NCBI GenBank assembly: GCA_001577715.1
Contig: LQAA01000065.1
Coordinates: 1-33,649, forward strand
Reading direction: 5' to 3'
Origin: Candidatus Adiutrix intracellularis
GTDB lineage: Bacteria > Desulfobacterota > Desulfarculia > Adiutricales > Adiutricaceae
DNA length: 33,649 bases
In this document: piece by piece, positions 1-31,028 of the stretch
Layout of the letters: each line of letters begins with the position of its first letter
How positions within the stretch are numbered: position 1 is the stretch's first letter
Notes under the pieces: model-generated
The model's database searches: none
Told to the model about the DNA's origin: nothing
What the model saw: only the letters and a program-made list of their open reading frames with translations
Program-made: the position numbers and the translations under genes

Positions 1-1
1 A

Positions 2-253: not shown

Positions 254-284
254 TTCAAAAAATTGCTGACTTTCCTTTTACGTT

Positions 285-321: not shown

Positions 322-390
322 AGCCTTGAATCCGAAAGGGCGGCCGGTTAGGTAATAAGCAAGACATATCCTTTAAGCTAAAGCTCCATG

Positions 391-1790: not shown

Positions 1791-1799
1791 AACCGGATT

Positions 1800-2640: not shown

Positions 2641-3089
2641 TGGCTGTGGTCATCCCCCACCTCACCCTCTAGCTTACAGAGCCAGTTATTAATATTGAAC
2701 CGGACTAATTTCAACCACCTCCCTTCCTAGCAAAAATGCAATCAGAATTTTTATATTCTACCCAAGTCTTTAAATCCGCCTACCGTACTTACTCTAGATA
2801 ATCCGTTCAAAATAGCTCCTCACCCCTAGTTAGGCATCTGTAATTGGATCTACGACCGAGCCAAACTGTGACTAAAAATTTTTAGTCGTTCAACCTCTAG
2901 ACTAGAACGGTTTAACCCGGATTTTTAAGATTAGAGATATTAAGAGGCAGCTGAATCTAGCTATCAAACTATCTTTGGCCGAGACTTTCAAACGCCTTAC
3001 GCTCCATATCTTCGCCGGTAAGACCGTAGCCTAGTTTAGACCTATTCCTCACTCCAACCTAATTACCTGTAACTAAGTTCGGATAATTG

Positions 3090-3645
3090 GAAGATAACCA
3101 ATTGTTTTTATATAATTTATCGACGGTCTGAAGTTTTCGGGTCTTGCAGCCGGAGGAGGCAAGATTCTTTATCAAGGAGCTCCTACAACCTGAGTTTTAA
3201 AACTTTTGGATATATTTATTCAACTAGCCCAAGGTCTGGGCTACGCCTACAGCCTGAGGCTAGCCAAGCTCGATATTAACCCTTGCAATATTTTAATGAA
3301 AAAAAATAACTAAGTTCTGATCAGTAATTACGATCCTTTAAGCTCCAGGCTAGAGACCATTTTACCGATTAAACACGATTTAGAGCTTATCCCCGACAAG
3401 AACTAAGTCCAGAAAAAAGCTACCTCTATCACCGGAAACCACCTTATCGGTACCCCCTATATTTTCCATTGGAACCGACCTCGAGGTAGAACGACTCGGT
3501 CGACTCTTCCAACTTATGGGCTCTACCCTTAATCGCTCTCGGATATTTTCTTAGGCAGCCGCCCCTAAAAATAAGCTCAGTAATTACCCGAGCTCTAGAG
3601 CAGTATCTGACTGCCCCTAAACCCGCAACCCCCATTCCACCGAAA
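3090..3645 (+). pseudogene. Second decayed Ser/Thr protein kinase
   Basis: After about 500 nt of unreadable sequence a second kinase C-lobe can be followed in one frame. It shows FLKLLDIFIQLAQGLGYAYS (helix alphaE) and then AKLDINPCNILMKK, a catalytic loop in which the usual HRD is KLD. About 120 nt later comes ITGNHLIGTPYIFHW, which matches the activation-segment end (GTPxYxxPE). A degraded alphaF region follows. In-frame TAA and TAG codons interrupt it. It sits tandem to the first kinase ghost on the same strand, suggesting a former kinase gene cluster. The family is clear; the substrate is unknown. Confidence 0.75.
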
Positions 3646-3799
3646 GCACTCTGAAGGGCAATTATAAAAAATTAGCCGCGCAACTCTACCTCCAAAACTA
3701 AAGTTTAGTCGTAGGCGAAAACAAAAAAACACCTAGCCCACAAAAATACTTCATCTACGAAACTGAGTCATCTAGATTTAATCCTAAAGGCTTAATATT

Positions 3800-3995
3800 T
3801 TCTAATGTTTATCCTCTTTGATATCGATATTCTCAAGAAAAGTATACTAGTCAATCGTTCTAGAGGAGGTTCCTAAAGCGCTTTCGAACTGCATACGGCT
3901 AGAACCTCCAAAGCTATTTGATTGGCGTAGAAAAAGAAAGTAAAATCATAGGATAGGCGGACAAAGATTAGAATTATCTAAACTAACACTATTGT
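3800..3995 (+). pseudogene. Possible HAD-family phosphatase ghost
   Basis: The translation FIMFILFDIDILKKSILVNR, then SRGGS-stop-SAFELHTARTS, resembles the N-terminus of HAD hydrolases (LFDxDGTLL, where the first Asp is the nucleophile). A later G-stop-ADKD could match the GxTD element. The GT after FDID is replaced by IL, so it would be inactive. The same DNA may overlap the 3' end of the recG ghost on the other strand. This is a weak call from one motif. Confidence 0.25.
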
Positions 3996-5887
3996 AGCTC
4001 TACTTTTTCACCCGGACTACGCATTTAAAAATCCAATTCGGCTAGGTCTAGCTCATCATAAACTTGAATTAGAATCATCAGGCATTAAGCAGCAATCAAG
4101 ATCAAATTACGGGGGAATAGGAAGCAACAACCCTCCTTCTATTCCGTCGCGTCCGACACGACCGTACAATATATAAAAAACAGCCAGACTGAAGCCTTCG
4201 ACCCCATAACGATGGCTACCAGAATAAGGATACTTCCCTGGCGAAAAGCACTCCGAGCTTTCTTGCGAGCTGCAGCTTCCATCCAACTATGGTAGACAAC
4301 CAATTTTCATTTCCCCACAGGCCAGGATATGAAAGTTAGACTGAATTTTATTAAATAAAGGCCTGGCAATTTCTAGGATTTCGGCGGAACTGCTGCAAAA
4401 GATAACCATAATTACTCACCCGCCTGCCCGTACTAATTCCAGAAAGCACTAATAAACGGCGAATCGATCCTCTAGTTTAAAGATTATGGTTTTAACCGGG
4501 CGTCGGTTGGGTAAGAAACTAACGCAATACAATGAATCTAGATCGCCATAAAGCATTGGACTCAAACCACAGAGGATAATGGTAGCGAAGAGGCTAAAAT
4601 ATAAACTTGAGTGTTTTGGCGGTACAAGGCTAGACATTAATTAACCTCAAAGCGGTGCTATTCGTCAATAACCATAAGAATAAATTTATTAAAGACAGTA
4701 ACAGGGGAAATAAGAGCCTGAGATCCGACGACTAATTGGTACCGCCCTCTAAGCTAAAGCCTTATAAAAGATAGATAGTTCCCAAAAAAAGAGAATCAAT
4801 CAGGAAAACCGGGTCAACCCCAAAAACCTCAACAAAATTACTCAAAAATTGGAACTGCTGGTGGACCAAGATATCGATAGGGGCCACAAAAACAACCTAA
4901 ACTCCCCGCCCCAAGTTGAAAAAGATAACGGTGGCAATCATGGTAATTTTTCTACCCCATGTCTCACCTTGAAGAAGGTGAGACATGGGACGATCAGCCG
5001 ATAAATTAGCAGTGATTTCTTTAAATCCTCTTAGTTATTCTAAACTAGGATCAAAAGACAGAGTACGCTAAAAAGCTGCCTAAATAGTCTAGTCAGTCAA
5101 GCCCTGGACCTGATCAGAGTGAATTATAATTTTCCAGCTTTGCTTCTAGTCTCGAGCATCACCAGACGCCAAAACATCGGTTCAAATAAAAATTATTGCC
5201 TGTAGGCTAGGAATTAATCCGTAGCTTAACCGATGCGCCCATTCTTCGACAGGGTATAAAGATTAATTAGGGTAGCAACCGAATCAAGCAACCGATGCTC
5301 ATTCAACCAAGCGCCGGGTAAAAAGAACAAACGCCGGACAACAGCGACAAAATCTAACCCAACAATTTTTTAATTAAACCGAGAGAGCTTCCCTTCAAGA
5401 TCGAGTAACCCACCCGCAATCCCTTTAAGTCGAAATCGATTTCCCAATCTAGTAGAACCTCCAGATCCGAATAAATTATGACTGGACACCAATTAAAGCT
5501 GACCTAGCCAAAAACATTAGTCTATCACCCCCGATTAAATATTTTGAGCAGATAAGTCTGAAAATTTAACTAAATTAAAGTTAAAGCGTCTCCAACGACG
5601 TCAATGGCCTTAGCGGCTAAAAACTACGGCTGCTTTGATCGAAACGACACAAACCCAGCTGAAATTATTTCGACTTTAATCAGAGTTTCTTAACATAGGA
5701 AAAGTTCGACTACAGAGATAGGATGACGTCGATCCTGCTAGAGACGGGAAAGTAGGGTCAAAAGATCGCCCGTTATTTTAAAGCTTTTATCTATCAATTA
5801 GACCAGGATTTTAGAACCAACGCCAGCTAGTTAAACAAGGGGATATCAAACATCGGGTATTGGGACCAAAAAACATGGTGACTCTAG
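3900..5887 (-). pseudogene. recG: Decayed ATP-dependent DNA helicase RecG
   Basis: The minus strand reads as RecG in pieces across three frames. TANLSADRPMSHLLQGETWG (about 4950-5010) corresponds to the DLxxxxPMxRLLQGDVGSGKT segment, with the Walker A residues destroyed. VVFVAPIDILVHQQFQFLS matches the MAPTEILAEQH motif. VVGSQALISPVTVF and LMVIDEQHRFEV carry the DExH box. LSPMLYGDLDSL and LPNRRPVKTIIFKLEDRFAV (4449-4637) match the TLYGDLD and PPGRxPVKT region. ILYGRVGRDGIEGG matches the QLRGRVGR arginine-finger motif. The most 5' part (about 5000-5880) resembles the wedge and N-terminal domains only weakly. RecG remodels stalled forks; it is certainly non-functional here. It lies directly behind mreB in the same direction. 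Confidence 0.88.
4956..4989. repeat. Perfect 15-bp inverted repeat with 4-nt loop
   Basis: The left arm 4956-4970 (cccatgtctcacctt) is exactly complementary to 4975-4989, with loop gaag. Neither strand has a T run directly after the stem, so it is not a standard terminator. It falls on the Walker A stretch of the recG ghost, between ...RPMSHLLQG and the former P-loop. Confidence 0.8.
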
Positions 5888-6901
5888 TCAGTTAACAAAC
5901 ACAGATTTAAAATAAGACATGTTTTCTAGAACCTCGCCGAGACCTAGCGCTACTGAAAGCAAAGGGTTCTCTGGAACATGAACCGGAAGTCCTATTTCCT
6001 GAGAGAGGCGCTTATCCAGACCTTTTAAAAGGCTACCCCCACCGGTTAGATTCAACCCATCCCGGCTAAGATCGATCGCAAGCTCCGGCGGAGTCTGGCT
6101 GAGCAGCAATTTGATTAAGTTGACGAATTCGGCAGTAATATCCACCAAGGCTTCGCGGATATCTTCGCTGGTGAGATTAACCATTTTAGGTATACCGGTG
6201 TGAACTTCTTTCCCCCGGCATTGAAAACTTTGAGTTTCTTCAAGCGGTATCGCCGAACCTATAGTCATTTTGATGCGTTCAGCCATATTTTCGCCCACAA
6301 CCAGATTATATTTACGCCTCAGATATCGAGCGATAGCCAAAGTGGATTCGTCCCCAGCTACCCGACAAGATTCGATAACAACTATCGTCCCCAGAGAAAT
6401 AATAACACCTTCTGAGGTGCCACCACCCAAATCCAGAACTAGTCGGGCCACCGGTTCGGTTGTTTTAATTCCCAAGCCGATAGCGGCCGCCAGAAGTTCA
6501 TCCACTAAATGAATGCTTTTACCCCCGGCCTCTTTAGCCGCTTCTACGATAGCTCTTTTTTCCAATTGGGTAACCCCCATCGGTACCCCTACCATAATTT
6601 TAGGGCGAAAGAAGCAACGCTTAGCTCCGGCCTGAACTAAAAAATGTTTGATCATCTCTTGAGCCACAACAAAATTACTTATGATCCCACTTCTCAAGGG
6701 ACGAACGACCTCTAAGCCTTTAGGAGTGCGTCCTAGGTAGTTTTTAGCCTCCTGCCCCACTGCCAACACCCGGCGAGATTCCGTTTCTAGCGCCACCATA
6801 GAGGGTTCATTGACTACAATACCATCACCTTTACGATAAATCAGAGTATTAGCTGTACCCAGATCCATGGCCAAGCCACCGGTTAAAGATAAGACTGACA
6901 T
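5888..6901 (-). CDS. mreB: Rod shape-determining protein MreB
   Basis: MreB is a bacterial actin that polymerises under the inner membrane and directs lateral cell-wall synthesis. The protein (337 aa from the ATG at 6901) has the actin ATPase signatures: phosphate-1 loop LAMDLGTANTLIY, connect-1 region KIMVGVPMGVT, phosphate-2 loop LVLDLGGGTSEG and the adenosine motif NLTGGGSLLKGL. Length is normal. The ATG lies 8 bp after the upstream stop. A GTG at 6913 overlaps that stop (GTGA) and is an alternative start adding four residues; I prefer the ATG because MSVLSLTGG aligns better with MreB N-termini. Oddities: VDELLAAAIG where most MreB have EPMAAAIG, and SEG for TEV after the GGG. No mreC/mreD follow; a recG ghost does. 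Confidence 0.94.
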   Translation of the reverse strand: MSVLSLTGGLAMDLGTANTLIYRKGDGIVVNEPSMVALETESRRVLAVGQEAKNYLGRTPKGLEVVRPLRSGIISNFVVAQEMIKHFLVQAGAKRCFFRPKIMVGVPMGVTQLEKRAIVEAAKEAGGKSIHLVDELLAAAIGLGIKTTEPVARLVLDLGGGTSEGVIISLGTIVVIESCRVAGDESTLAIARYLRRKYNLVVGENMAERIKMTIGSAIPLEETQSFQCRGKEVHTGIPKMVNLTSEDIREALVDITAEFVNLIKLLLSQTPPELAIDLSRDGLNLTGGGSLLKGLDKRLSQEIGLPVHVPENPLLSVALGLGEVLENMSYFKSVFVN

Positions 6902-6909
6902 AAAATACG

Positions 6910-8019
6910 TCACCCGTCGTCGTTATCGTCGTCAGCCAGAGCCGTCAAGGCGATTTCTAAAAGTTGCTCGGGACTTAGCCCGTCACAAGGATAGGTAGCC
7001 ATGGCCGGAAAAAGGCCCAGCTCGGCCCGGCCGCTAGTCCCGATTAAAGGCCAGTTTTCCAGGTTTTTTTTAAACCTAATAATAAAAGCTTTAGCTTCAG
7101 CCGCATCAGCAGTGGGGGCGGCCAGGGTAAATACACCATAAGAGATATGCCCTAATCGCCAGGTTGATCTAAGATCTTCTTTAAGCTGGGCAGCAATAGA
7201 TTTAAGCAGGCTCCCGGCCGCTTCCTGACCCTGACGGGTAGCAAATTCCCCCAAGCCAGAAGTGGCTAAAACATATAAATCTACTCCTTCACCTTTGATA
7301 TCAGCTACTTCCATCATGTGATGAAGACTTTCCAAAAACTGGCCGCGATGAGGCAAGGAAGTTTGAGAATCAACCTGATCCAATTCCATTACCTTAAGAA
7401 TAAGCCGATCCATGTGCAATCGAGCAGCTAAACGATCCACTATACATTCCAAAGCTTCCGTAAAGATGGGGTTTAAGGTTTCTCCGTCAACGCCGGCTAA
7501 GATCAAAGCCCCTCTAGGTTGGTCGTTATATAAAACTGGCCAGCCATAAAACGAACGAAAACTATTTAAGGGCTCATTTTTCTGAAAAATAAAAGATTTT
7601 TGACTATTAGTTTTAAAGCGGTCGATGGTCAAGGGTTTAAGTTTAGTATGAACCCAGCCGGCCAGGCCTGACGATAACAGATATTTGGTGGGTATTGTCT
7701 TTGGAACGTTATTGCTAGTAGCCGCTAGATAATAATGTTTTTTATCGTGACCTTTGAGTACAGTGAGAAAGACCCAGGTTAGACCGGTAAAATTACGGAT
7801 CAGTTCCAAAGCTGAAGTTAGACCGCCGCCCTCATGGTCAGAACGCGACAGACAGAATTCGAACCTTTTGCACAAGGTGCAGATTTTGCCGCCTAGGGAA
7901 GCGAGTGGATCGGCCGAATTGGCCGACGCGTCACCACCGGCAACCCCGCTAATTTTGCGTGGGGATACTCCCCCGACTAGACGCTGCAAAACGCGGGCTA
8001 TGATTTGACCAAATTGCAT
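6910..8019 (-). CDS. GAF domain protein with degenerate GGDEF domain
   Basis: This 369-residue soluble protein is encoded just upstream of mreB, with the stop overlapping a possible GTG start of mreB. Residues about 70-210 have a GAF-like sensory fold: SALELIRNFTG..., a central SSGLAGWVHTKLKPL and GWPVLYNDQPRGALIL. Residues about 215-369 follow the GGDEF layout, with DQVDSQTSLPHRGQFLE where cyclases have D.LTGL.NR..F. The signature turn reads RLGHISYGVFTL instead of RxGGDEFxxL, so diguanylate cyclase activity is very unlikely. Near the N-terminus CTLCKRFEFC (C47, C50, C56) could be a metal site or remnant. Context suggests control of or scaffolding for MreB, which is inference. The start ATG at 8019 is supported by AAGAG about 14 nt upstream. 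Confidence 0.8.
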   Translation of the reverse strand: MQFGQIIARVLQRLVGGVSPRKISGVAGGDASANSADPLASLGGKICTLCKRFEFCLSRSDHEGGGLTSALELIRNFTGLTWVFLTVLKGHDKKHYYLAATSNNVPKTIPTKYLLSSGLAGWVHTKLKPLTIDRFKTNSQKSFIFQKNEPLNSFRSFYGWPVLYNDQPRGALILAGVDGETLNPIFTEALECIVDRLAARLHMDRLILKVMELDQVDSQTSLPHRGQFLESLHHMMEVADIKGEGVDLYVLATSGLGEFATRQGQEAAGSLLKSIAAQLKEDLRSTWRLGHISYGVFTLAAPTADAAEAKAFIIRFKKNLENWPLIGTSGRAELGLFPAMATYPCDGLSPEQLLEIALTALADDDNDDG

Positions 8020-8104
8020 AAATAATTCGTAACTCTTATCTGTAAAAATATAGCGTTGTTTAAAATTAGTGCCACTATCCCAAAAATATCCGACAGGGGT
8101 ATAA

Positions 8105-8500
8105 CCATGAAAAACTTTAGTCCCTCACCACAGGTATAAAACGAAAGTCATTCAAATTCAAAAGTAACCTGATCTATATTAACCGGCTGACCGAGTTATG
8201 TATTTTCAGTTCAGAAGCCCATCACGAAGCTGAATTAGAGCCGTTTGATTCATATTTTTAGAAAGGCTTCATATACGTTCGAAAATTGAAAGGATGGCCC
8301 TTATAATCAGTCATAAACAGGATAATATCATAATTACTTAAATCGATGAAATAATTATCTAATATAATTTTAAACTCAGGATCGTCTCCAGGATTATGGC
8401 TTTGCAGCGATGTTATATTGGCCGGTATCTCTTTTAATCTTAGGCACCAATTATTAAAATACTCCTCTTTAAAAAGTTATTTTTTAGTGTAGCATATTGT
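8105..8500 (-). pseudogene. Unidentified decayed gene upstream of the GAF gene
   Basis: The minus strand gives a coherent stretch of about 70 residues with protein-like composition: WCLRLKEIPANITSLQSHNP, GDDPEFKIILDNYFIDLSNY and DIILFMTDYKGHPFNFRTYM in succession. After that there are stops and a degraded tail toward 8105. A good ribosome-binding sequence (AAAGAGGAG, about 8475) precedes it but no start codon is properly placed. I do not recognise the family. It points the same way as the GAF gene and mreB and may once have led that transcript. Confidence 0.5.
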
Positions 8501-8529
8501 TCCTCTAAGTTAAACCCCTCAAAAATTAT

Positions 8530-8560
8530 AAGGATGCACAAAAAAATAAGCATCCTTTTT
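8530..8560 (+). terminator. Rho-independent terminator, possibly bidirectional
   Basis: The arms aaggatgc (8530-8537) and gcatcctt (8550-8557) enclose a 12-nt A-rich loop, followed by T residues on the plus strand. On the minus strand the stem is followed by ATAATTTTT, so it could also stop transcripts from the transposase ghost above it. No intact gene ends here on either strand, so it is a leftover of lost genes. Confidence 0.65.
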
Positions 8561-8579
8561 CTTTAACTTATCTACCCAT

Positions 8580-8760
8580 TTCAAGCTTAAAATGCCTAAA
8601 GAGAACCTCTTCAAGATTTTATTTTTAAAATCCACTCCTGGCTTTGGACATTAAGGTTAGAGTGTACTTGCCACTTTAACATCCCATTGCATCGCAGGTT
8701 GCTTTAAACGTCGCTGGAATACGATTTTATTTTCGTTCTCAATGGCTCCGTTACTAATAA
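8580..8760 (-). mobile_element. Decayed transposase C-terminus, ISKra4-like
   Basis: The minus strand reads NKIVFQRRLKQPAMQWDVKV, then ASTL-stop and SKARSGF, preceded by a broken GxIEN-like segment. This pattern (G.IE.xxK.IV..R.KQ.GM.W...GA..LL.LR) is typical of the C-terminal end of ISKra4-family and related transposases. Only the last 50-60 codons are recognisable, with stops and a frameshift. The N-terminal part would lie between 8760 and about 9150, where I can follow nothing. Confidence 0.55.
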
Positions 8761-9160
8761 GTCAACCTTTTCTATATCTATTTAGCTAGTTCAATTAATA
8801 AGTAGCTAAAGTCAAGAAAATTTTTATAGAAGAATAAATTAAAGGCTATTTAAGTTTCATACACTTTGCTGATTTGGTAGTACCTCTCGCCTTTATTGTC
8901 CAGCACTTACTTAGCTTGATCTTTTTTTCGCAACAGTTAATTTTTACCTATTGAAGCGTCTTCGTTCATTTTTAACCTTTCATCGAACAGTGGTCTTAAA
9001 TCTAAGTTTTTTTATTTTCCTAAGGTCGTAATATAATATTTTCCATATGCACTACAATCAAAAAATATTTGGCCTCGACCTTTCACTGCTCAATTTTTTT
9101 CATAAAGTTAAAAAGGCTATCAAGGAACTTTATAATGATTTCCGAATTGAGTCTTTCTAA

Positions 9161-9331
9161 CCTGATTGAAATTATTTATTTCAATATATTACTAAAAGAT
9201 ACTATTTATTACTGGACACTACTTATGGATCGGAACAAAATAAAGGCTTTTTATTACGACGAAGTGAATAAATCTGTCTAAGTAAATGTAGCCCTTTTAC
9301 TGGCTTAATTCTGAGTATCCCTATTCATTTA
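9161..9331. repeat. Dispersed degenerate repeat, copy 2
   Basis: This is the homologue of 391-560. From the ATG at 9225 it reads MDRNKIKAFYYDEVNKSV before a TAA. The similarity also covers about 60 nt upstream of that ATG, and ends on both sides without an obvious terminal inverted repeat or target duplication. It lies about 400 nt beyond the recognisable transposase remnant at 8580-8760, so it might belong to the same dead insertion element. Confidence 0.7.
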
Positions 9332-9814
9332 GCAAAGGAATAAGCTATTAAAGCTCTAAATAAGAAGACTGTCTGAATTTTTTTCTTCTTAAAACTTTTA
9401 GCCAGCTACCCTCTAATTTTCAGCTAGGCTAACTGGAGTCCGGTATTCTTTAGCTTCTGTTTCCCCATCGGCAAAGGACAGTTCCCGCCAAGCCTCACAC
9501 ATATGCCACTCGACATAACAAGTTAGCCTACACAAAAAGATATAAGCCCCGACTCTTTGTTCTAGCCAATAATGTATAGGCTATATTCTTAATATCAACC
9601 CTCTTTATCATTCTAAAAATCTACTCTATCCGGGAAAAATTTGTTAGCGCGAGCACATTCCTCCAGGCTCATCTCATCTTTATTAATTAATGTTTTAATT
9701 ATATAGATTCCATTCAATATTAACTCCTGCTCTATACTAAAATGTAGCGATATGAGCTAGATGAGGCTTCATCAATTTTAAGAATAAAATATTTTTAGCT
9801 TTTTTACAATTTAT
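9332..9814. other. Gene-free decayed DNA, nothing identified
   Basis: AT-rich sequence with stops in all frames between repeat copy 2 and the cheB ghost. I recognise no gene, RNA or regulatory structure in it. Confidence 0.5.
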
Positions 9815-10250
9815 CTTATACCTGACAGTCAAACAGGTAATAACTCGGCCATAATTCTTAATCTATTAAACAAAGTTATGACCGACAAACCAAACATCAG
9901 TATCATCATGTAGGTCAAAAACATCTTTAAAGCCCGAAAAATACTTCTGGAATTGAGCTAAGATGTGCTGACCCTGGATATCATCATACCCAAAATGGAT
10001 AGCGTGAACTTTTTAAAAAACTCATGATTTACCGCCCTCTACCGATCATAATCTATTTCACCATCGCTAAGAGCGGTAGCCAGACGAAGTACCACAGCGA
10101 CAGGATTAGGGCCGCGGACATCATCAACAAAAGAAAGACCTAATCTTTACAAAAGTAGCTGAACACGGTTAAGAAGGTATATATCCAAAATTTAGTCCGC
10201 CGCAAAAATACCATTAGCCATAAGTATAAAGAAGAAATAACCAATATCTG
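9815..10250 (+). pseudogene. cheB: Decayed chemotaxis methylesterase CheB, receiver domain
   Basis: One plus-strand frame runs about 70 codons with only two stops. LIPDSQTGNNSAIILNLLNK corresponds to the receiver N-terminus (VDDSxxxRxxL), NISIIM-stop-VKNIFKARKI to the A.DP..AR region, and DVLTLDIIIPKMDSVNFLK to the phospho-acceptor loop (the Asp of TLD). After a frameshift, PLPIIIYFTIAKSGSQT matches PVIMVSSLTxxGSxxT and ADIINKRKT matches the end of the receiver. CheB demethylates chemoreceptors; its C-terminal methylesterase domain is absent because the reading stops at the 3' end of pcm. It implies that chemotaxis has been lost. Confidence 0.85.
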
Positions 10251-14257: not shown

Positions 14258-14980
14258 AGTTCTGGCTCCTAAAGCAAATATAATTTACTAAAAATTATTT
14301 TAGAATAAAGTATCACAAATTAATATGAAATCAAATAGTTTTTTAAATTAAGACCCGCCGGGAATATAATTCTGAACCCACCTCAAAGACTTGTTTTAAG
14401 TTATGTTGATTGTCTCCTCATACATCTCCCAAAAAAAGAAGCATCTCGATCTAATTTCTAAGGTAAATTCCGGACTAGAAGGTCAAAATTATACTATAAT
14501 TAATATGATTACTCAATTAAAAATCAAATGCTTCATATGTTTTTAAGGACCGACTAAATATATCGGCGTAAGGTAGATCCTTCAACGCAAAAGTTTATCC
14601 CCTTGGCTAAGTACTCCAAGACCTTGTGAGGGTTGTCAATCGCTTTAAACTTGAAGCTTCCAAGCAGATTATCATTATCTGCGATTAAAATTAGACTATC
14701 TTTTTAACCGATAAGACCTTTTATAAATTTTTAGAACCTAGAAACCAAACGATAAGGTTAAGGTAAAAGTAATTTTTTAAGTTATCATACATTCGTCGTA
14801 AAACTCAGCCGATATAAATTTTCCACATGTAAAGTATACGCTATTCTACAAGCTTAAAATATACTAGATCAAAATATATAAGCAGAGGTATCGCTAATGC
14901 GGAAGACTAATACTCAACTTAATAAAATAATATAAACATTGAGACCTCTTTTTTTGGTTACTTGGGTTTGATGCCAGACT
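14258..14980. other. efp upstream region and unreadable decayed DNA
   Basis: The first 80-100 nt upstream of efp are very AT-rich and should hold the operon promoter; TTGATT with TACTTT 16 nt downstream (minus strand, about 14300-14330) is a possible but weak match. Beyond that I recognise no gene. A short GCAGAT...ATCTGC inverted repeat lies near 14665-14685. The 5' part of the transposase ghost may begin within this stretch. Confidence 0.35.
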
Positions 14981-14984
14981 ATCC

Positions 14985-16232
14985 AAGAAACTTAGCTTAG
15001 TAAATCTTTTTGATAAACTTATGCCGAAGACTCAAGTTTATAAGATCATTCATACAGAAGATAACTTTAGCTTTCGTCTTAAACGGGTTTTTGTTGCAAC
15101 GCAGGTAACTTTATTTTTTTCCTACAACCAGGCTTTATCCAAGATGTCGGCGCCAGCGACTTAAATAAAGCCGTGATAAGTAAACTATTGGATAAAATTT
15201 ACAACTTTGGCCCAAACTAAGCTTTTTTAACTGACGCTACTCCGCATATTAACTAAAATACGAAAAAACGACCTAACTAGTTTCCATACGAACACCACTA
15301 AGACTCTAACGGAGTTAGAAGCCTTGTTTTATTAGGAAAATAAATTAACGGCTAGCGAAAACGACGAGCGTTATTCGTTTTATAAAATAACTTCTAACTA
15401 CGTTAAAACCAGGCAAAGATAGTTTCCCAGCTACTCTCTAGAAATAGTGAAGAAAAAAGAAATAATCTTTAAAGTTTATTTAAAGAAGTAGTTTTTAAAG
15501 GCCCAAGAGACATTAATTAATTTGAAAATAGATAGTTCGCTTATGCAGTTAATGCGCGAGCAGAATCCACAAAAAGGATTAAGTTGTATGAGTTGCTAGA
15601 GTTTGAAGTCAATGTCCATCATGGAAATAACTACGCTACAGATCAAAAGGGATATCCCAAAAAAAATAAAGCCCTGCGGAAAATTTATTTTATTAAGGCT
15701 AAATTACACGAAAACGCTGAGGCGATAGCTCGGAAACTGCGTAGTTTGTACAGTTTATTTTAGCCAATAATTATGTGTTCTTGTCTGATCCAGAGTTATT
15801 AAAAATCTACAAGGAATAGGGATAGGCAGGTTAAACAAAATTTTTTAAAGAGAGAGGAACATATTGCAACGTTAGCTTTCATAATGGTGCTGTAGTTAAC
15901 ACTCTATATTCTCTATTAGAGATAAAGTTACGGAAAGACTTATATAGCAAAGGCTTAGCAGTTCCAAATAGCCTAAAAAAGATACCTAATAACCTACACC
16001 GAAATAGGCAACCAGCTTTTTTTGCGCAAATATACGAAACGAAGATTTTATTTAATAGAGTTCTCATTAAAATCAACCTGATCCGTATAAAACAGGACAA
16101 CTCAACCCCTACTATTTTAAATGTATTTAGGAATAATTTTAAAAAAGTATCTTCTTGCGAAAGCTCTTGATAAGTGTGTACTTCAAGAATAATTATCGAG
16201 GATAAGCACACATTCGTTAGGAGAAATTTCAC
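14985..16232 (+). mobile_element. Decayed IS1634-family (IS4-like) transposase
   Basis: Plus-strand fragments line up with the C-terminal half of IS1634-type transposases. LRKIYFIKAKLHENAEAIAR is followed, after a frameshift, by FILANNYVFLSDPELLKIYK (family: FILATN..LS..ELL..YK.Q), then broken VE..F sequence. One long open stretch from about 15880 then has FHNGAVVNTLYSLLEIKLRK and GLAVPNSLKKIPNNL (family: LVYSLAQxxLRxxL...xxIPNQLxKP) and ends with VFRNNFKKVSSCESS. Upstream, DLTSFHTNTT may be the DxTxF region. Numerous stops and shifts make it inactive. The boundaries and terminal repeats cannot be fixed by eye. Confidence 0.75.
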
Positions 16233-16642
16233 AGTTAGGCTTTCTTACTCACCAAATAAATTTAAAATCATAACTAAAAGGATATTTTACTATAAAATAT
16301 TATAATCACTCATAAGAATAAGAAACTTATTTTTGTCTAATTTTTCTGACTGCCTAAAAAATTAATTAATATTTTGGAAGCCTAATTAGCATAATAAGAA
16401 GCAAATAAATCTATTCTAATAGATTAATACTATAACTATGTAACATTGTTATATAATTTTTAGTACCCCCCTGAAAAGTAAAAAACCTAAAACCACTCCT
16501 ATCAAATATATAATGAAGATGTGGAAAGCCTATAAAAACACGGTGATAGAATTTAAAAAACCAACTCTGGAATTGAACGTATTTAAGGATACTTCATTAA
16601 TATTCCTAAAATTAAAGCGCTTATTGTCGACACCGAAAATGG
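16233..16642. other. AT-rich stretch behind recN, nothing identified
   Basis: There is no recognisable gene. A plus-strand reading near 16590-16630 gives YFINIPKIKALIVDTENG, which looks protein-like but is too short to assign and is broken upstream. No terminator for recN is evident. Confidence 0.4.
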
Positions 16643-19849: not shown

Positions 19850-20340
19850 CCATTCCGATTCCAGATTTTTTCCGGCTAAAGCTGAAAAGGCTCGGGGTAT
19901 TCAAACCGAGAGACAGCCGATACCTCCAGCCCAATTATAACCAACGACCCGGCTAAGAATAGACTGAAAAGACTACGACAGGCCGCTTTTCTTACTCCTT
20001 CAAGAAACTAGCACCCCAGAGCAAAACCCTCACTATTCCGGGCCTAATCGATAAGGCTTAATTCTTCAGCCAAAACTTCTAACTTAACTAAAATATCAAT
20101 TATAACTTGAACCATCTCTAAGATCTTAGAAATTAAAATCTAACACAAGATCGGCAGTTTATCCTTGTATTTTTCTAGTTAACGGATACACATCTGACGC
20201 CAAAAAAGTTCTTTAGTCAAAACGTCCACCTGACAGGTCTAGCGATTGAATTTTGTTTTCAACACTCCTACCTAGTCTCCAGTCTTAGCCCCTATTAATT
20301 AATAACCGCCCCGGCCGCTTTCAGACGACTATTATTCTTA
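19850..20340 (-). other. Decayed DNA upstream of the orphan gene
   Basis: Minus-strand snippets such as MVQVIIDILVKLEVLAEELS and LFSLFLAGSLVIIGLEVSA read like helices or a membrane segment but are separated by stops. They may be the missing 5' part of the orphan gene or another ghost. No function can be assigned. Confidence 0.35.
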
Positions 20341-20399
20341 GCCGAATCGTAATTCGCCTAAATAAATTCACTTTTGAAAGTAGCTATTTCCATTATTTT

Positions 20400-23300
20400 T
20401 TGCTGAAACTTCCTATTCTATTCAGTCATATTTTTTCTAGTCGGGCTAGTTGCTCTCTGATCCGAGCTAACTCAGTCACTACTTTTACAAACGAATCGGC
20501 CAGGAAAGCCATTAGCGGGCGGAGTTCATCCAATCAATATTTTAAAAAAGGAGGTGCCACCTCAAGGGGCATTGTTCCAACTGAACCCATTATAATGACG
20601 CTAGTTTCATCTTTCAAATAATAATCCAGATCGGGGAAGTTAGTTAATCCTCAGCTTTTTCCAGCCGTTGACCAAAAGTTAACTACCAGAAGCTCCACCT
20701 TAGCCAGACTAATTTTTTGCTTTTCCAGTTCCCCTAATGAGGTCCCACAAGCCATTGAAGCCCCTCCTTCCTCCACCTAACGACCTCATTTAATCGTTTA
20801 CGATAACGTTCGCTGCGTAAATTCCAAGGTCGTGCTCATCTTTTAGAACGATGCTTAAAGCGGATTTTATTTTTGTTTAATCCCTGATTTAAGCAGGTTT
20901 TATGGCAACTTTTCTCGATTAGGGCGCGTAACTCTTTCCCGGAGCAGACCCAGATAACTACTTAATATTCTGGGTTTTTTCAACTACCACTAACTAACCT
21001 AAACAGTTCCGATGATCTCTATTTCTCTGGCGATCACATCTAGCCTCAGGTTAACTTCCCACAGATTAGTTTTAAATTTAAGTTGTTCGGTAAAAATTTC
21101 CATCGCCGTCCTTCCCCGAACTAACTGATATTCGCTGCGCCAAAGAATTCCGGCCAAAATTCTAATAAAAGGAAGCAATTAATCAGCAATATTTTCTTCC
21201 AATTCAGCCAGCTGATTAGCCACCTGGTCTTTCTGAACTTTAATATTGGCCAGCTAAACGGTCAATTACCATTTTTCTTCTTACAGTTATCCGTTTCTGG
21301 CGGTCAGAATCTTTTTCCCCTCTGCCGCAAATTGAGCCAATTCTGACAGTCTGGCTTGATCCTCCTATACTTCTTTCAGATCGTTCCGTTCTTTTTTCAG
21401 GTTATCCCGTTCTTTTTCCAAAGCGACTAGATTAGAACGCAAATTTTCTTCCCCCCTAACCAGATTCGACAGCCGTTTAAGAACCACCTTTTTTCTTCAG
21501 CCAGGGCAGCTAGGTAAGTGACCAGATAATTTCCAACCTGATCTACAGCCAAGATTTCACGGCGAGCCTGATCTAATTAGACTAGAATCTTATTTCGCTC
21601 TCTTTCCATATCAACCGTTTTCAACCATACCGAACCTAGTTTGACCCTTAATTTTTGACGGGTTACAACCAAATGTAAAAGATTATGTTTCTAGCGGATC
21701 AAAGTGATATTCATAAGTTCCCATTTAATCTCTAATTAGGACAGCCACCGGTATCCGTGGCTGATGGTCTTTTTTAGCGAAATGTGGTCTAGCTCAAAAG
21801 ATACAGCTGTCGTCTGAGAACGGCCGCAACCTCGTTCAAATCTGGGCAAATACGGCTGGTTTAAACTAATTTCTCTTGATAACGGTCTAATCCTGCAGGC
21901 GGAGATTCAACCTTAGCTAAGGTGGAGGCCAGACGGAGGGGCTAAACCTACATTAGGGTCGCTACCTTTTGCATTCTTTATTTAAATTTTTTCAACCCCC
22001 GCGAAGCTCTTCTAGACGACTAGATAATTTCCGACGCGCGGCTGCTAATTTTTACCGTTCTTTGCCTTTAACATCTTTAAATACAATTTAATTTTTTTAT
22101 ACCGCGAGCGAGCCTGAGTGAAAAAAGCAGCCAGGGTTGAATCTTTACGAGCTAATTCAATCCACTCAAGCCTTAGTTATTCTTTTTCTTTAATCAAGTT
22201 CAGCCGCTTAAAGTTAATTTCTTTAAAAAAACAACTTCGCAATCTAAAGCTTTGAGCAGACTATTTTTTAAATACCTCACCTCTCCCATAGTTTCCCGAG
22301 CTATAGCTAATTGTTCGTCCAGATGTTCTTCCTCAACTACAACCGTATCAAGATCCCCAAACCAAACGTTAATTTCGGTCCCCCATTCAAAGCGAGGTTC
22401 ACTGAGGTTTTCTCGTTATCAAACTGCCAAAAAGAGGCTGCAGAGACGGCATCTGACTATTTTAGTTTTAGTCTAGCATGAAATTACGCATCGTAACGCT
22501 TCAAGAAGTTCCAAAGCTTTATTTAAAAGTTTCTAAATAATTTACAACCACTCTCCGGTTAGGAGTAGATGATACAACAAATCTCCCAGGAGTAACTGTG
22601 CGCGACTAAACGAACGGACGGTGGCTAGAAAAAAATTTTCAAAACTAACGAAGTATCTCAAGCGAACGGTCAGGACAAAATATAATTGAACCATTCCCCG
22701 GCACCGTTCTATAGTGGGCCGACACAACGACAGAGCGCCCCGAATTACGGTTTCCAGACAATAACTAATTTCCACGGCCCCGCCGCCCAGTTAGGCGCCG
22801 TTTCATATCCATTAAAAAAGTTAAGGGCTTTTTATAGTAGAAATAATTTTGGTCACTTTCCCAATCAAATTTTTCTCCGTCAAGCTTAGTTTAGCCAGAC
22901 AGCGCCCCAGACTGATCTAATCCCGATTCAATTCGGATTCATCCATCATTGAGACCAGAAGGTCACCAAAATCAATAACTACAGAAGCGAGTCCATCTAA
23001 ACAACAGTAGCCCTCGCTGAGAAGAACTCAGGTTGAAAGCAGGACGGTTTTTAAATTATGGGGCGCTCTGATTAAAGTTCCCTGGTAATAAGTTCCCCGA
23101 TCCAACCTCCTATTTTCGCTAATTTTAGGCACGGCTTTAAGGAGTAAGTTAACAACTTTTTCCACGCAGTGAGCTTTACTCCACAGACGTTTAGCTTCCC
23201 GAAGCTAATCGAAAGCCTCATTTTGAAGGGGGGAGGCAGAGACGGACGGCTCGCAGAAGGTCAACCCGGTTAACTGATAACTCTTACAGGCGACTTTCAA

Positions 23301-23660
23301 GAAAATTTATAGTCGCATCGAAACTAGGACTTTTAATGGGCTAGTTCTGTTACAAATCGTTTACAACCCGCCTAACCCGTTTAAAATCTACCTCTAAAAC
23401 CATCAGCACGGACTAGTTTAATTCCAGCCTCTGAGAAAAATACTCTTACCGGGTCACCCTAAAATAACCCCTCCTCCTGAAATTGACTATCCAGGACCAG
23501 AATTAAGTAATCTTTCAATGAAGTAGCCCCCAGATATCAAAATATTTCCAAGTTTAAAATTCCTGAGGCGAGAACAGGAACGAAATATAGCCTTGAACAG
23601 GGGGAGAAGAATTGCGGAAAAGCCGACCGATTTCTTTGGCTAAGGTCCAAAAGACAGTAA
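20400..23660 (-). pseudogene. Large decayed coiled-coil protein gene
   Basis: Across about 3.2 kb the minus strand yields coding-like fragments in changing frames, rich in E, K, R, L and A heptad patterns. From the 5' side these include DSQFQEEGLF and DPVRVFFSEAGIKLVRADGF, then a long open stretch at 22542-22775 with ALSLCRPTIERCRGMVQLYF, then FGDLDTVVVEEEHLDEQLAI and GEVRYLKNSLLKALDCEV. Further on come NLVRGEENLRSNLVALEKER and, near the 3' end, FVKVVTELARIREQLARLEK. The size suggests an ancestral protein of about 1000 residues, such as an SMC-like or cytoskeletal coiled-coil protein. No Walker motif could be found. I cannot name the family, and it could be more than one gene. Confidence 0.5.
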
Positions 23661-23889
23661 AGTCTGTTTTTTATTTTTTCATTGGGAAACCAAGGAGGGT
23701 ACGGCCGAAGTTTCCCATAAAGTCCCATCCGCCAATAGTCTTAAGATTGTCCTAGTCTGCAGTACAAAGCCGGATCATAACCAAATATATACTTACAGTT
23801 TGAATAAAAATAGAGCGTCCGTTCAACCTGAGTAGCCGAGCATTAAAAAGTGGCATTATTATAATATATCATAAGTGATTAAAAACAAC

Positions 23890-23917
23890 GTAAAAAATAA
23901 AAAACCGGCTACCAACT
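23890..23917 (-). terminator. Possible weak terminator after serA
   Basis: On the minus strand, just after the serA stop, AGTTGG-TAG-CCGGTT can form six pairs (several G-U) followed by T-rich sequence TTTTTTATTTTTT. It may be a terminator weakened by mutation. Confidence 0.35.
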
Positions 23918-23921
23918 AATT

Positions 23922-24848
23922 TTAAATCAGTGTCTTAAAAAAACTAACCATCTGTTGAGCAATATTTACAGCTACATTAACTTGAGCTTCGGCCGTAGAA
24001 GCCCCCAAGTGAGGCGTGGTGACAAAATTGTCTAAAGCCAGAAGGGGATGGTTTAAAGCCGGCGGTTCAGTTGCAAAAACATCCATCGCGGCCCCAGCAA
24101 GGCGACCCGAAACAAGGGCTTCGGCTAGAGCGGTCTCATCGACCAAACCACCCCGGGCACAGTTAATTAAAATAGCTCCGGGTTTCATATGAGTCATAAT
24201 AACTTCACGATTGATAAGCCCCGTAGTCGTGAGGGTTTTAGGTAAATGCAAAGTCACAAAATTACTATCACCCAGAATTTCACCGAATGTGGCGGGTCTG
24301 GCTCCGCCAGCAGATATTTGGAGGTCGGTTAAAAGTGGGTCATGGGCCAGAATATTTAGACCGAAGGCGCGAGTCAATTCAGCCACCCGGCGGCCAACCG
24401 CGCCAAAACCGATAATACCGATAGTCTTACCGAAAAGTTCGGTACCGGCCAGTTTGGATTTTTCCCAACGGCCGGCTCGGATCGATTTATCGGCTATCGG
24501 GATGTGGCGCACCAGGGCTAGAAGAAGACCGATAACTAACTCAGCCACGGCATTGGCGTTCTGGCCCGGGGTATTAAGAACAGTAACACCCCGTTCTCTA
24601 GCCGCATCCACGTCAATGTTATCCAACCCGGCTCCGGCCCGACCCACAACTTTCAGTTTATCGGCTTTGAAGAAAATTTCGGCGGTCACTTTAGTTAAAC
24701 TTCTAACCACCAAACCGTCATAAACAGCTATAATTTCTTTAAGGTCACCAGCTGAAAGTTCAGGACGATGATCGACAGTAAAGCCAGCGGCTTTAAAGAT
24801 ATTCGAGCAGCTAAGGTCGATTTTTTCACAAATGAGAATTTTAAACAT
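23922..24848 (-). CDS. serA: D-3-phosphoglycerate dehydrogenase, short form
   Basis: SerA oxidises 3-phosphoglycerate to 3-phosphohydroxypyruvate with NAD, the first step of serine synthesis. The 308 residues hold only the two catalytic domains; the ASB and ACT domains that give serine feedback inhibition in long forms are absent. Key sites are intact: VGRAGAGLDNIDVDAA, the nucleotide-binding GIIGFGAVGRRVAEL, the catalytic Arg in INCARGGLVDE, Glu in FATEPP and His in TPHLGAST. I start at the ATG at 24848, preceded by AAGGAAG; an upstream TTG at 24884 that overlaps serC has no support. Loss of the regulatory domain suggests constitutive flux, though short SerA forms also occur normally in other bacteria. 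Confidence 0.94.
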   Translation of the reverse strand: MFKILICEKIDLSCSNIFKAAGFTVDHRPELSAGDLKEIIAVYDGLVVRSLTKVTAEIFFKADKLKVVGRAGAGLDNIDVDAARERGVTVLNTPGQNANAVAELVIGLLLALVRHIPIADKSIRAGRWEKSKLAGTELFGKTIGIIGFGAVGRRVAELTRAFGLNILAHDPLLTDLQISAGGARPATFGEILGDSNFVTLHLPKTLTTTGLINREVIMTHMKPGAILINCARGGLVDETALAEALVSGRLAGAAMDVFATEPPALNHPLLALDNFVTTPHLGASTAEAQVNVAVNIAQQMVSFFKTLI

Positions 24849-25960: not shown

Positions 25961-26640
25961 TTCACACTCCCAAAGACGACCTCTTTATTTAATAACGCCT
26001 GTTTTATGGCTGAGTTTCATTCTAAAAACAACCGAAAAATACTATAGAATACACGCTTATAGACGTCAAGAATTTTCCGCGCCTCTACCTTCTATTTTCT
26101 ATTTTTAGCGATTAATTTTTATGTCCCAAACCACATCCGCCGCTAACTTAACTCTTCCCACACCTTAATATGGCCGCTGATCCGGCAGTTTTGGTCAAAA
26201 GTAGGGGGAGAAATATGAAAATTATAGCAAGGTAATTGGAACTATAGAAGTTTCTCTAAATATACCTAATTTAGCTGGGTTAGTCAATGAGCATAACATT
26301 TCCGTCATATTCCAAATTCTGAAATACCTTAAAATTTTTTGCTGTACTTTTTTATCTTTCGAAGGTTATTTCTAACTAAGTTATTAGTAAAGAGCTCATC
26401 TTTGCGGGTCGTGAACCAAAAGGTGTCGTCTTAATAAGCTCATAGCTACACTCTTAAAACTGCGTGATTTTGACTAAGCCACTTGACCTATTTTACCTAG
26501 TGATCATATTTATCTCCGGGCCTTTCAGCCCAGCATTTTCTATATTCCTCCAGTACCAAATCCGCCCAAAAAAGCAGATCTGCCTTGGCAGGGTGTACTA
26601 ACAGACCTGACCGCTGCAACTATTCTCACTGGTTTCCATT
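25961..26640. other. Decayed DNA upstream of serC
   Basis: No intact gene. The plus strand at about 26205-26340 reads SKVIGTIEVSLNIPNLAGLV, then NEHNISVIFQILKYLKIF, which resembles a soluble-to-membrane transition of a dead gene. By position it could belong to a permease such as FTR1 or to the 5' part of the DUF2318 gene that follows, but no REGLE-type motif was seen. The serC promoter should lie just upstream of 25976 on the minus strand; no convincing boxes are visible. Confidence 0.35.
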
Positions 26641-26649
26641 TTGGTACCG

Positions 26650-27655
26650 AGTGGGCGATCAAATTAATTATACGTTTGGAGTTACCTCCCCTCCATCGTC
26701 ATGGCCCTAATCTAGTTAGCCCCCTTTAAAGGCATCTTACTTAAGCCTGGCCCCAAAAAGTATTTATCCTACTAACATCGATAGTTATTCCGCACCTATG
26801 ATTAACCATTTATCTACCAAATATTTTTCTGTTGTCCCCTGAATTTAGCGTGGTTATAAATAATATTTTAATTTAGATATTTATTTAAAATTATTGGCTA
26901 TCTTATAACTCTGAGGATACTTTTGCTACTGGATTAGTTAATTTTCAAAATAGTTGGCTAGATCCCTCAGTCAATTTTGCCGATCATTATCCTTCTAACT
27001 ACGGGGGTTTTATTTTATCATAACCTCTAGAAACCACCCAGATGATAGTGGTCAGAGGTATACTACTCCGTCCCAGATAGTTTTTCTCCTAGTCTACCTT
27101 AATTGATTTTTATGTCTTAATAGCTATTATAGGCATTCTAGCCCTAGAACCGATGGTCAGGGCGCATTTTGCCTCCATGACCGAGACCATACCAACTAAG
27201 CGTAATAAAATGAGGGGCGCCCATCGCTGCTGTTTACATTATAGCGTCGTCACACTACTTTATCGCGGTTTTTCTCTTCTAAACATTACCCTTTTCAAAG
27301 CCACCGCCAAACGAATGGTAGAAATATCTCCGGTCGAAAAAATTAAACCCGCATACGGGTGTCTAGCCATCAAGCTTAATGAAATCAATAACAGCAATTT
27401 ATATTAACTTCAATATATCATTGAAAATGGAATACCCATACGTTTCATCATTATCAAAAAAACTAACCCACCTACGATCTAGACCAGTTAGTACCAGCGC
27501 AAAAACCAAGTCATCTGCAAACTATGTGACACGGTCATAGATAAATCCACCATCGGATTTCCCAAGGGCTGCACCCTGTACCTCTAAATTTTATCATCTC
27601 CTAAGGAATTGTGCTCATAAAAACCCAGGTTCTGAAAAACGAAAAATACTAACTT
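26650..27655 (+). pseudogene. Decayed DUF2318 membrane protein (P19-type iron system)
   Basis: DUF2318 proteins are membrane proteins with a C-terminal periplasmic domain, encoded with iron-transport ABC genes (Cj1660 in Campylobacter). Here a membrane stretch DFYVLIAIIGILALEP is followed by GCLAIKLNEINNSNLY, QYIIENGIPIRFIIIKK and QVICKLCDTVIDKSTIG, which match the family order ..iplsei.dg.Lh.f.y...g..irFfvI....viC..C...i...TIG. The ending GCTLYL becomes GCNPVPLNFI, the family's hallmark, if one base near 27565 is restored. In the expected acceptor segment, TGG-to-TAG type stops replace residues, and the first CxxC of the family is lost. It heads the dead ABC cassette to 30531. Confidence 0.75.
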
Positions 27656-27659
27656 AAAT

Positions 27660-28642
27660 AACGGAAGAACAATTACGGCTATATTTTAAAAGATGTTGAA
27701 AGGAGCCCTGACCCAGTATTGAGGTATGACCTAGAGAATACAACCAAAGATACGATCTATATAACTGAAAAGGACCTGAGTAAAATGAAAATATTTTTTA
27801 GGACTTACAACATAGTTAAATTTACTCACTACCTAAAAACCAGAGTCAACAGCGCGGCCGGAGACCTAACTCTAATGGGTACCTAGTTTGATCGGTCCCT
27901 AGTCCTACCCACCGATAACAAAGCCAACGTCAGAATAAAGGCTCTAAAGGCATGGTGAGATATAAGTGATTTAAAAGGCGACAACTCCCAGCTTACAAGT
28001 ACCCTAGGGAGGTAGTTTCTAGCTAAGTAGCCAAAAATTACGGAGGGCAGCAAGTTTACGACTAACTTAGCTAATGGCAATCCGGTAGAACTTATAACTA
28101 GAGGTGTTTTTCATAGTGGCGGCCCCGAAGACACTTAGACTTTTGTACCTTTAAAACTGGTTCAGAAATTTTCCAGGCGCCCCGGACTAAAAACCAGATT
28201 AACCCATCGGGCCGCTCAAGATCCGGATAGTTTATACCCAAATAAAAAAGGTACTTAGTATTGCACTGGTTACATTAGTCCTGTAACTCGCCAGATTGAA
28301 GAAATAATTCTGAGAACACAAGTCAAAGCCGTCTTATAGGTAGCCGAGTCATAGAACTCGATTCTTTCCAAAACTTAGTCTCTGTTGATAATTTTAACTG
28401 TTTTAGCTTTAATTTACTCAATTTTGATTATTTCTAGCCTGGTAACCACCAGCATTATGAAGCTCAGCGGAAAAATTAACCTGCTTAAAACCTTAAGGGC
28501 TACTACCTTAACTATATCTTCTTTGATTTTATTTGAAATTCTGCTCACTACTCTAGTCGGAGGAATTTTAGATTGTTTTTTGGCCCTGGAATTTACCAAG
28601 ATCATCGGACAGAGCGTTTCCAAAGCATCCGTTTCGGTTTAA
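27660..28642 (+). pseudogene. Decayed FtsX-like ABC permease 1 (Cj1661 type)
   Basis: The start region reads KMLKGALTQY, followed abruptly by periplasmic-domain sequence DTIYITEKDLSKMKIFFRTY and NIVKFTHYLKTRV, so the first membrane helix seems deleted. LMGT-stop-FDRSL shows a Trp lost to TAG (family: GTWFD). Later GVFHSGGPEDT matches the FtsX-like VTGILxSGGxED element. The C-terminal membrane domain (28385-28642) is still open: LVTTSIMKLSGKINLLKTLR, then ATTLTISSLILFEILLTTLV and GGILD, the MacB/FtsX pattern with the ExxLLKALGA coupling helix. In P19 systems two such permeases form the membrane core. It is inactive because of stops, the deletion and frameshifts. Confidence 0.8.
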
Positions 28643-28754
28643 CTACTAGTCATCCCTTTAGCGATTTTTTGGTTCTAGGGATACTCTCCTATGGAGCCTG
28701 TCGACTATTCACTATTTTCTGGTTCTCCGGTCCAAGAGAGTTCTACATAGATAA

Positions 28755-29860
28755 TGAACATAAAAAAAATAATCCATTTATACTTAATTGCTACTCCTCT
28801 ATTTGTTGTACCACCACAGCCGTATTCTAATGGCTTTGATTAAGGTAGCCATCCGAACACGGTTCTTCTGGGCATAATCACTCTCTCTTACAATACACCC
28901 AGATAGATGAACCGGAGGATCCGCGCCTATGAAGCCAAGCTGATTTCTATTGGTTCCACCAGGAAAGAGCTTCTTGAGAACAAACTCTAATGCAATCACC
29001 AAAGCTGCTATTACCGGAAAGACTAGTGGGGCTGGTCCCTTATCGCTATAAAACGGTACATAGCAATCTTTCACTTTACCCAGCCATTGGCACCAGTTTC
29101 GAGAAAATAAAAAAAGACCAATCTCTACTAGCAGATCGATAGCCTCTAACCTACCTGGTCAAGGGAGATTCTTATTAAGGGTGACTTCGCTAAAACTAAC
29201 AACCAGGAATAAAAGCCTGGCCGCTAAATTAATCTAGATAACTAAAATCAAAACTAAATCCACTATATAGCCGCTTTAACCATATCCAGTCTAGCTTGAA
29301 CCGACGATATAGAAAATAAATTTATTTTCATAGATTTAAGCGATATGGAGAGGATAACCAAAGAATTCAACTAAATCGAAACGGTCTATATCAACCTCAC
29401 CGCAGATGAACAAGAACTGATGGTTATTATCGAGCAGGTGCGAACCGAAACCGAAACACCCAGGCTAAGACACCACAACAGCGCCTAGTCAATCTGGTAA
29501 CCCAAACGCGGTCTTGAGCAAACTCAAAGTCCTGATCTATCTAATCACCCTGGTGATGCTAATTCTAACTATGACCTACACGATTACTATTATAATGACC
29601 GTAGCTAAGGAGCAGCATCGGGAAACTAATTTGGGGGAAACCCTTAACGCGGAAACAACCGCAGTACCCGGGAATTTCTAGCCAAAAACCTAATTCTGGA
29701 CTTTATAAAAGGGAAACTAAGCTGCGGCTGCGATCTTATTTTCGCCTAGATAATTTTTGTAAATGTTTTACACTACTCTATTTCCGCTACCGTAGCTATT
29801 GCTATTGTACCTTACCTAATACTAATTAAAAAATTATAGCCTTTAAAGCAGTCTTAATTT
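28755..29860 (+). pseudogene. Decayed FtsX-like ABC permease 2 (Cj1662 type)
   Basis: The recognisable parts are RAYEAKLISIGSTRKELLE near the N-terminus (family: VRxYGANL...), FIFIDLSDMERITKEFN and ETVYINLTADEQELMVIIEQ of the periplasmic domain, and a membrane helix KVLIYLITLVMLILTMTYTI running into IIMTVAKEQHRETNLGETLN, the coupling-helix region (family: vMeRrxExGLxKALGA). Frameshifts and stops separate these blocks. It follows permease 1 in the same direction and precedes the ATPase, as in Campylobacter Cj1661-Cj1663. The assignment rests on order plus the membrane and coupling-helix pattern. Confidence 0.7.
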
Positions 29861-29892
29861 TAAGAGAGTAATAAAATAAGTATTCTATTTTT

Positions 29893-30531
29893 TGTAAATA
29901 TATCTAAAAATTATAATTTTCTCAAGGCCTTAAACGAAGTCAACCTGGCGATGGTCCCCAGCGAATAAATCGTTATCATTAAGCCGAACGGTTCCAATAA
30001 AATCATTTTAATAAGCACAATCAGCTGTCTAGATAAACCCACTAATAGTTCAATAATTTTAGACGGCGAAAATCTAGCTAGCCTTTCTTAAAATAAATTA
30101 ACTCTATGTGCCACGACAAGATTAGCTTTATTTTTCAATAGTTTAATCTAATTAACTATCTTACCAGTCTAGAAAACATCATAATCATCCATATTACCAT
30201 AGTTTGATAGATGAAATGGAAACTCTGGCCACTCTGAATCAGGTGAGGTTAAAAGATCGAGCCAGATATCTACCCCACTAGCTTCCCAGCGGCTAGCAAC
30301 AACAAGTCTATACCGCCCGGGCCCCTCAATAATTACACGAAATTTGTTATGGTCGATGACCCCACCGGCGATCTGAATAAAACTAACGATCGAAGGATCC
30401 TGAATATTTTGCACCAGTTGCATCGGAAAGGCAGCACTATAGTCTTAGTCACCTATGTTCCCAAGGTAGCTGCCCACACGAAAAAAAATATTGCTTTGGA
30501 ATATAACCGTATCGCTAGATTTATCATCTAG
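29893..30531 (+). pseudogene. Decayed MacB/LolD-like ABC transporter ATPase
   Basis: All landmarks of a MacB-type ATPase are visible but damaged. ALNEVNLAMVPSE is followed by a TAA. The Walker A region is IIKPNGSNKIIL instead of I.GPSGSGKSTL. SCLDKPTNSSIILDGENLAS matches the region after it, and LALFFNSLI matches the Q-loop IGFIFQSFNLL. LKDRARYLPH-stop-LPSG-stop-QQQV is the LSGGQQQRV signature with Q and other codons now TAG. From 30349 the frame is open: MVDDPTGDLNKTNDRRILNI and KGSTIVLVTYVPKVAAHTKK, where Walker B Asp is kept but DEPTG is DDPTG and the H-loop His is Tyr (VTY). It powers the two permeases in the ancestral iron transporter. Confidence 0.87.
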
Positions 30532-30557
30532 AACCAACCCTAATCCAACGTTGACCC

Positions 30558-31028
30558 TTACACTACTGGTTTAACTTCCGGTCCTATTTCCGGTAATGAC
30601 GAAATCTCTGTTTTGATTAAGCCGTGAATAATTAGACAGGTTTGAGGGGCCAGAGGATCATTGGTCAGAACCCAGGCCGTCCGACGGAACTGTAATCCTG
30701 CCCATTGTTGGTAAACAGTTATCGCTAGAGTGATCCGTCCGGTTCCGCCAGGTAGAATAATATGGTCGTAGCTAACTACAGAACAACTACAGCCAGGTTT
30801 AACTTGCATGATTTCTAGAGGAGCGTCGCCTTCGTTTTTAAAGACAAAAGTATGTTCCGCCACCTGACCAGGAATAAGGTTGTCACTTTCAAAAACTACC
30901 CCGTCAATCAGCAAACGAGGTTGCGGCCCAGAACTTTCTCCGCTCCAAAGAGGTGTAGCCATTAGCAACAAGACCAGAGCCAAAAACAAGAGAATAATCT
31001 TTTTCAACTTAAAAATAATTAAGCCCAT
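30558..31028 (-). CDS. Exported DUF1573-domain protein
   Basis: The 156-residue product has a signal-peptide-like N-terminus (positive FKLKK then LLFLALVLLLMATPLW), followed by a beta-rich DUF1573 / ASH-like domain: VFESDNLIPGQVAEHTFVFK, NEGDAPLEIMQVKPGCSCSV and RTAWVLTNDPLAPQTCLIIH. The GCSC motif and the tNDPxxPxxxLxxxG ending are typical. Such proteins are periplasmic or surface-exposed and have no known catalytic role. The start ATG overlaps the 3' end of the glycosyltransferase ghost by 10 bp, so it was part of that transcript. It ends in PEVKPVV-stop. It appears intact although its upstream partner is frameshifted. Confidence 0.83.
   Translation of the reverse strand: MGLIIFKLKKIILLFLALVLLLMATPLWSGESSGPQPRLLIDGVVFESDNLIPGQVAEHTFVFKNEGDAPLEIMQVKPGCSCSVVSYDHIILPGGTGRITLAITVYQQWAGLQFRRTAWVLTNDPLAPQTCLIIHGLIKTEISSLPEIGPEVKPVV

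Follow-up and report, generated by a model that had tools for sequence, protein, structure and literature searches.

A segment at about 26814-30519 of the window (the whole 33,649-nucleotide stretch of DNA analyzed here) is almost certainly a decayed, 5′-truncated remnant of a P19/FTR1-type iron-uptake operon in a Candidatus Adiutrix genome, where an intact FeoAB system plausibly made the operon redundant. Four collinear relics lie on the plus strand and correspond, in order, to a DUF2318/FtrD-like protein, two FtsX-like permeases, and a MacB-type ATPase. Cassette proteins of intact relatives matched the segment in this order and on one strand by tblastn, which is the arrangement of a P19/FTR1-type locus, present here as pseudogenes. 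The longest open frame on the plus strand of 26000-30540 is at most 85 codons, and a full-length protein could not be read from any of the four genes that remain. Open frames with intact ATPase and CxxC motifs were not found; the locus is a relic, a nonworking member of its family. Here a known transporter has been lost through ordinary reductive decay, and the locus does not represent a new system. The earlier note, which called the segment a dead P19-type iron cassette, was right on this point: it is a Cj1658-Cj1663-like pseudogene locus, in which 1178 matched codons are interrupted by 32 in-frame stops and about 15 frame breaks.

Each relic was read by frameshift-aware alignment against profiles of 7 to 8 intact relatives, in which the break count varies with the penalties used. 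The DUF2318/FtrD-like membrane protein pseudogene (26814-27649, plus strand) covers residues ~116 to 411 of 414 (tblastn E = 5e-29 with a congener), and its 280 matched codons contain 8 stops and about 4 frame breaks. Its first CxxC motif (GLDACDIC) was lost in a 10-codon deletion, and the second (CKLC) can still be read. The first FtsX/MacB-like permease pseudogene (27758-28748, plus strand) covers residues ~85 to 428 of 430 (tblastn E = 2e-68; 44% identity over 331 amino acids), with 10 stops and about 2 frame breaks in 331 codons; in the genome search it scored 262.6 bits, again with 10 stops. Only 108 nucleotides separate these two relics, in contrast with the ~290 nucleotides expected, and this stretch has therefore undergone a deletion in which the first ~84 residues of the permease were lost. 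The second FtsX/MacB-like permease pseudogene (28765-29836, plus strand; residues ~3 to 354 of 379; tblastn E = 4e-33) has 9 stops and about 6 frame breaks in 352 codons.

The MacB-type ABC ATPase pseudogene (29876-30519, plus strand; residues 1 to 215 of 236; tblastn E = 2e-31) has 215 matched codons, 5 stops, and about 3 frame breaks. Its frameshift-aware score was 460, compared with a shuffle maximum of 36. The Walker A motif GPSGSGKTT has become KPNGSNKII, LSGGE has become LPSG followed by a stop, and the catalytic DE of Walker B has become DD. Diagnostic residues had previously been said to survive in this cassette; some motifs do persist in eroded form, but Walker A and the first CxxC of DUF2318 are gone. 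The tblastn matches confirmed the strand, gene order, and gene families proposed earlier. Pfam profiles, which had been suggested as a check, matched weakly because the genes are decayed: in raw frames, PF10080 (E = 0.012) and ABC_tran (E = 0.041) were the only Pfam matches at E ≤ 1. A whole-genome search with PF10080 returned this place alone (E = 9e-4, below the cutoff).

The cassette had also been described as complete, and this does not hold. The intact order, FTR1-P19-DUF2318-FtsX-FtsX-ATPase, was seen in both cassette-bearing congeners and, among named loci with sufficient flanking sequence, in nearly all; bee-gut Gilliamella is among the carriers of all six genes. The P19 protein of a congener matches solved P19/FtrA structures. 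In the window, FTR1 and P19 (two of the six cassette genes) are absent, and the starts of DUF2318 and the first permease are undetectable. Positions 25961-26813, where the intact gene order places FTR1, P19, and the DUF2318 N terminus, hold no recognizable relic; of the span 26650-30531 assigned earlier, the relic occupies the part from 26814 onward, and 26650-26813 has no recognizable content. Searches of this upstream region by tblastn found no match to FTR1 or P19 above chance. The frameshift-aware P19 profile score there was 27.2, within the range of shuffled sequences (mean, 26.4; maximum, 38.4; 54 of 150 reached 27.2), and that for DUF2318 residues 1 to 115 was 25.0, a value reached by 12 of 150 shuffles. 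A candidate P19 remnant just upstream, proposed from a weak match of a relative's open reading frame (L028_11015_11668) to 25961-26820, was rejected, because this open reading frame does not encode P19 and the P19 profile score lies within the shuffles. At E ≤ 0.1, neither PF10634 (the periplasmic iron-binding P19) nor PF03239 (the FTR1-family iron permease) matched anywhere in the genome, whereas congeners carry P19 beside DUF2318 and FTR1 in the same operon. The genome is a draft of 154 contigs, 91.6% complete, and the lack of FTR1 and P19 holds only to that extent.

The ATPase frames also match the NCBIfam LolD, MacB, and related exporter models. That the relic derives from a LolCDE-type lipoprotein exporter or a MacAB-type efflux pump and not from a P19 iron cassette is nevertheless very improbable. 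A DUF2318 relic adjoins the permeases, and each of the four genes has its match in the iron cassette. The closest relatives of the ATPase and the first permease are cassette proteins of Candidatus Adiutrix sp. Gx485_bin45 (JAISFR010000130.1), whose cassette is intact (51% and 47% identity, respectively), but another FtsX-linked ATPase of this congener is only 22% identical over 77 amino acids. The ATPase relic scored 31 and 27 bits with the LolD profile and 110 plus 72 bits with the cassette ATPase of the congener, and no better-matching ATPase or permease family was found outside the cassette. With a DUF2318 match present and an ATPase closer to cassette ATPases than to LolD, the iron-cassette assignment stands.

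Across the four relics, the 32 in-frame stops comprise 20 TAG, 10 TAA, and 2 TGA codons, and the residues found in relatives at these sites include W, Q, E, R, K, Y, G, and L. Sites that are invariant in relatives were kept at 61, 61, 44, and 55% in the DUF2318, first permease, second permease, and ATPase relics, respectively, and variable sites (kept meaning a residue seen in some relative) at 61, 57, 60, and 65%. Intact control rows tested likewise kept 85 to 99% of invariant positions. Since invariant sites are kept no better than variable ones, the segment is evolving without constraint. In trees, the relic branch measures 2.7 to 3.1 changes per site, in contrast with a median of 0.11 to 0.16.

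We also considered whether the genes could be functional through stop codon reassignment or readthrough, given that most stops (20 of 32) are TAG and that long stretches, such as the first permease, align with few frame breaks. This is exceedingly improbable, and we rejected it. TAG falls alike on invariant W, Q, E, and Y sites, TAA and TGA are present too, and the reading frames are broken about 15 times. Walker A is destroyed, the first CxxC is deleted, invariant sites show no excess conservation, and the live genes of the same window follow the standard code. Where the window is poor in ORFs, CTA and TAG abound on either strand and in every frame, and the TAG excess therefore looks compositional. 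The 4 kb of the cassette (26550-30540) contain 126 CTA and 85 TAG trinucleotides; the genome is rich in CTA, TAG, and CTAG, unlike the GC-rich congeners, in which CTAG is depleted. As judged from sequence composition, the preponderance of TAG among the stops may be explained in this way, and decay remains the preferred reading of the locus.

The surroundings are also poor in genes. Recognizable intact genes make up only ~40% of the window, and 1-5880, 8020-10250, 14260-16640, and 19850-23920 are long stretches nearly without open frames; the window looks rich in pseudogenes or noncoding DNA. Pfam searches of the minus-strand frames of 1-5880 and 19850-23930 gave no match. The DUF1573 protein beside the cassette (30558-31028) is only 40 to 48% identical to its nearest congener matches, and SerC, on the other side, is 75 to 80% identical to congeners; a search of named genomes with SerC gave no match. 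Contig C148 carries a further DUF1573 gene (6611-7018).

Loss of the transporter had been taken to imply that iron comes from the host cell or another importer. A search of the rest of the genome for feoB, as had been proposed, found an intact pair on contig C84, where FeoA (86 amino acids; 3645-3905) is directly followed by FeoB (747 amino acids; 3902-6145), both uninterrupted. The G domain, gates, and C-terminal domain of FeoB are all present. Five of the six congeners also have FeoB, and the one in which it was not found is an 81% complete genome. The genome of the window further encodes three uninterrupted FecCD-type permeases, and an ABC ATPase gene follows one of these. Another importer therefore suffices, and host supply is not implied because FeoAB is intact and the three FecCD-type permeases are kept. 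Loss of the cassette because the host cell delivers iron, leaving a dedicated importer unneeded, would fit a genus that includes an endosymbiont of termite-gut flagellates and a genome that looks reduced. We consider this explanation unlikely, however, since FeoAB is intact, the FecCD-type permeases remain, and a 4.7-Mb congener also lacks the cassette. Downstream of its P19 cassette, the Gx485_bin45 genome (G003) carries a ferric-type ABC importer (ATPase, permease, and binding protein; locus L022, 2098-5440, minus strand), whose binding protein had no match in the genome of the window, in a search run without a positive control.

The source genome falls within Candidatus Adiutrix, a genus placed in Candidatus Adiutricaceae, and the two congeners with intact cassettes are, by their records, Candidatus Adiutrix metagenome-assembled genomes (MAGs). 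Termite-gut flagellates harbor Candidatus Adiutrix intracellularis as an endosymbiont (PMC7608387), and we infer that the source organism is itself such an endosymbiont. Of six congeners, two have DUF2318 and a full-length permease in an intact cassette, and searches of the other four detected neither. Three congeners are at least 90% complete, and two of them (93 and 95%) lack the cassette, have no detectable relic, and keep FeoB. The ATPase tree placed the relic with G003 and an Accumulibacter-labeled MAG (support, 90/91), apart from the other cassette-bearing congener (G004) and the rest of the family, and the FtsX-1 tree did not settle its placement owing to the long branch. From the sequences, this grouping suggests that the relic and G003 had a common cassette type, which later decayed here. 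The G003 cassette proteins group with the Accumulibacter-labeled MAG, near Desulfovibrio, and not with G004 or the family, suggesting that the iron cassette moved horizontally between gut bacteria or that contigs were misbinned. It is possible, although rather doubtful, that this cassette type, which differs from that of G004 and of the family, was gained within the genus by horizontal transfer from other gut bacteria and then lost here, in a cycle of gain and loss of an iron importer within a symbiont lineage.

Judging from the family, P19 in a working cassette would capture ferrous iron in the periplasm and the FTR1 permease would move it inward, with the DUF2318 protein and the exporter-type complex of FtsX permeases and ATPase assisting FTR1 import. 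Here, FTR1, P19, and two gene starts have been lost (as far as the 91.6% complete draft extends), and the remainder drifts without selection. FeoAB, with iron as its presumed load, plausibly covers iron uptake and would have made the operon redundant. The locus illustrates clearly how a redundant metal importer decays in a genome close to termite-gut symbionts, with intact congener versions for comparison. Retention of FeoAB corrects the inference of obligatory host iron; knowledge of the transporter itself is unchanged.

Compared by gene names and order, the Campylobacter jejuni locus Cj1658-p19-Cj1660-Cj1661-Cj1662-Cj1663 (PMC6338021) has the same DUF2318-permease-permease-ATPase order on one strand, and its full order, FTR1 and P19 included, recurs in the intact cassette of the congener. 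Unlike the C. jejuni P19 locus, the window has the last four genes only, all of them broken. The Gx485_bin45 cassette likewise differs in having six open, uninterrupted genes, a GC content of 61% (39% in the relic), and other flanking genes. Reductive evolution with many pseudogenes is shared with other genomes of termite-gut protist symbionts, such as that of Candidatus Desulfovibrio trichonymphae (PMC7608387), which belongs to another lineage.
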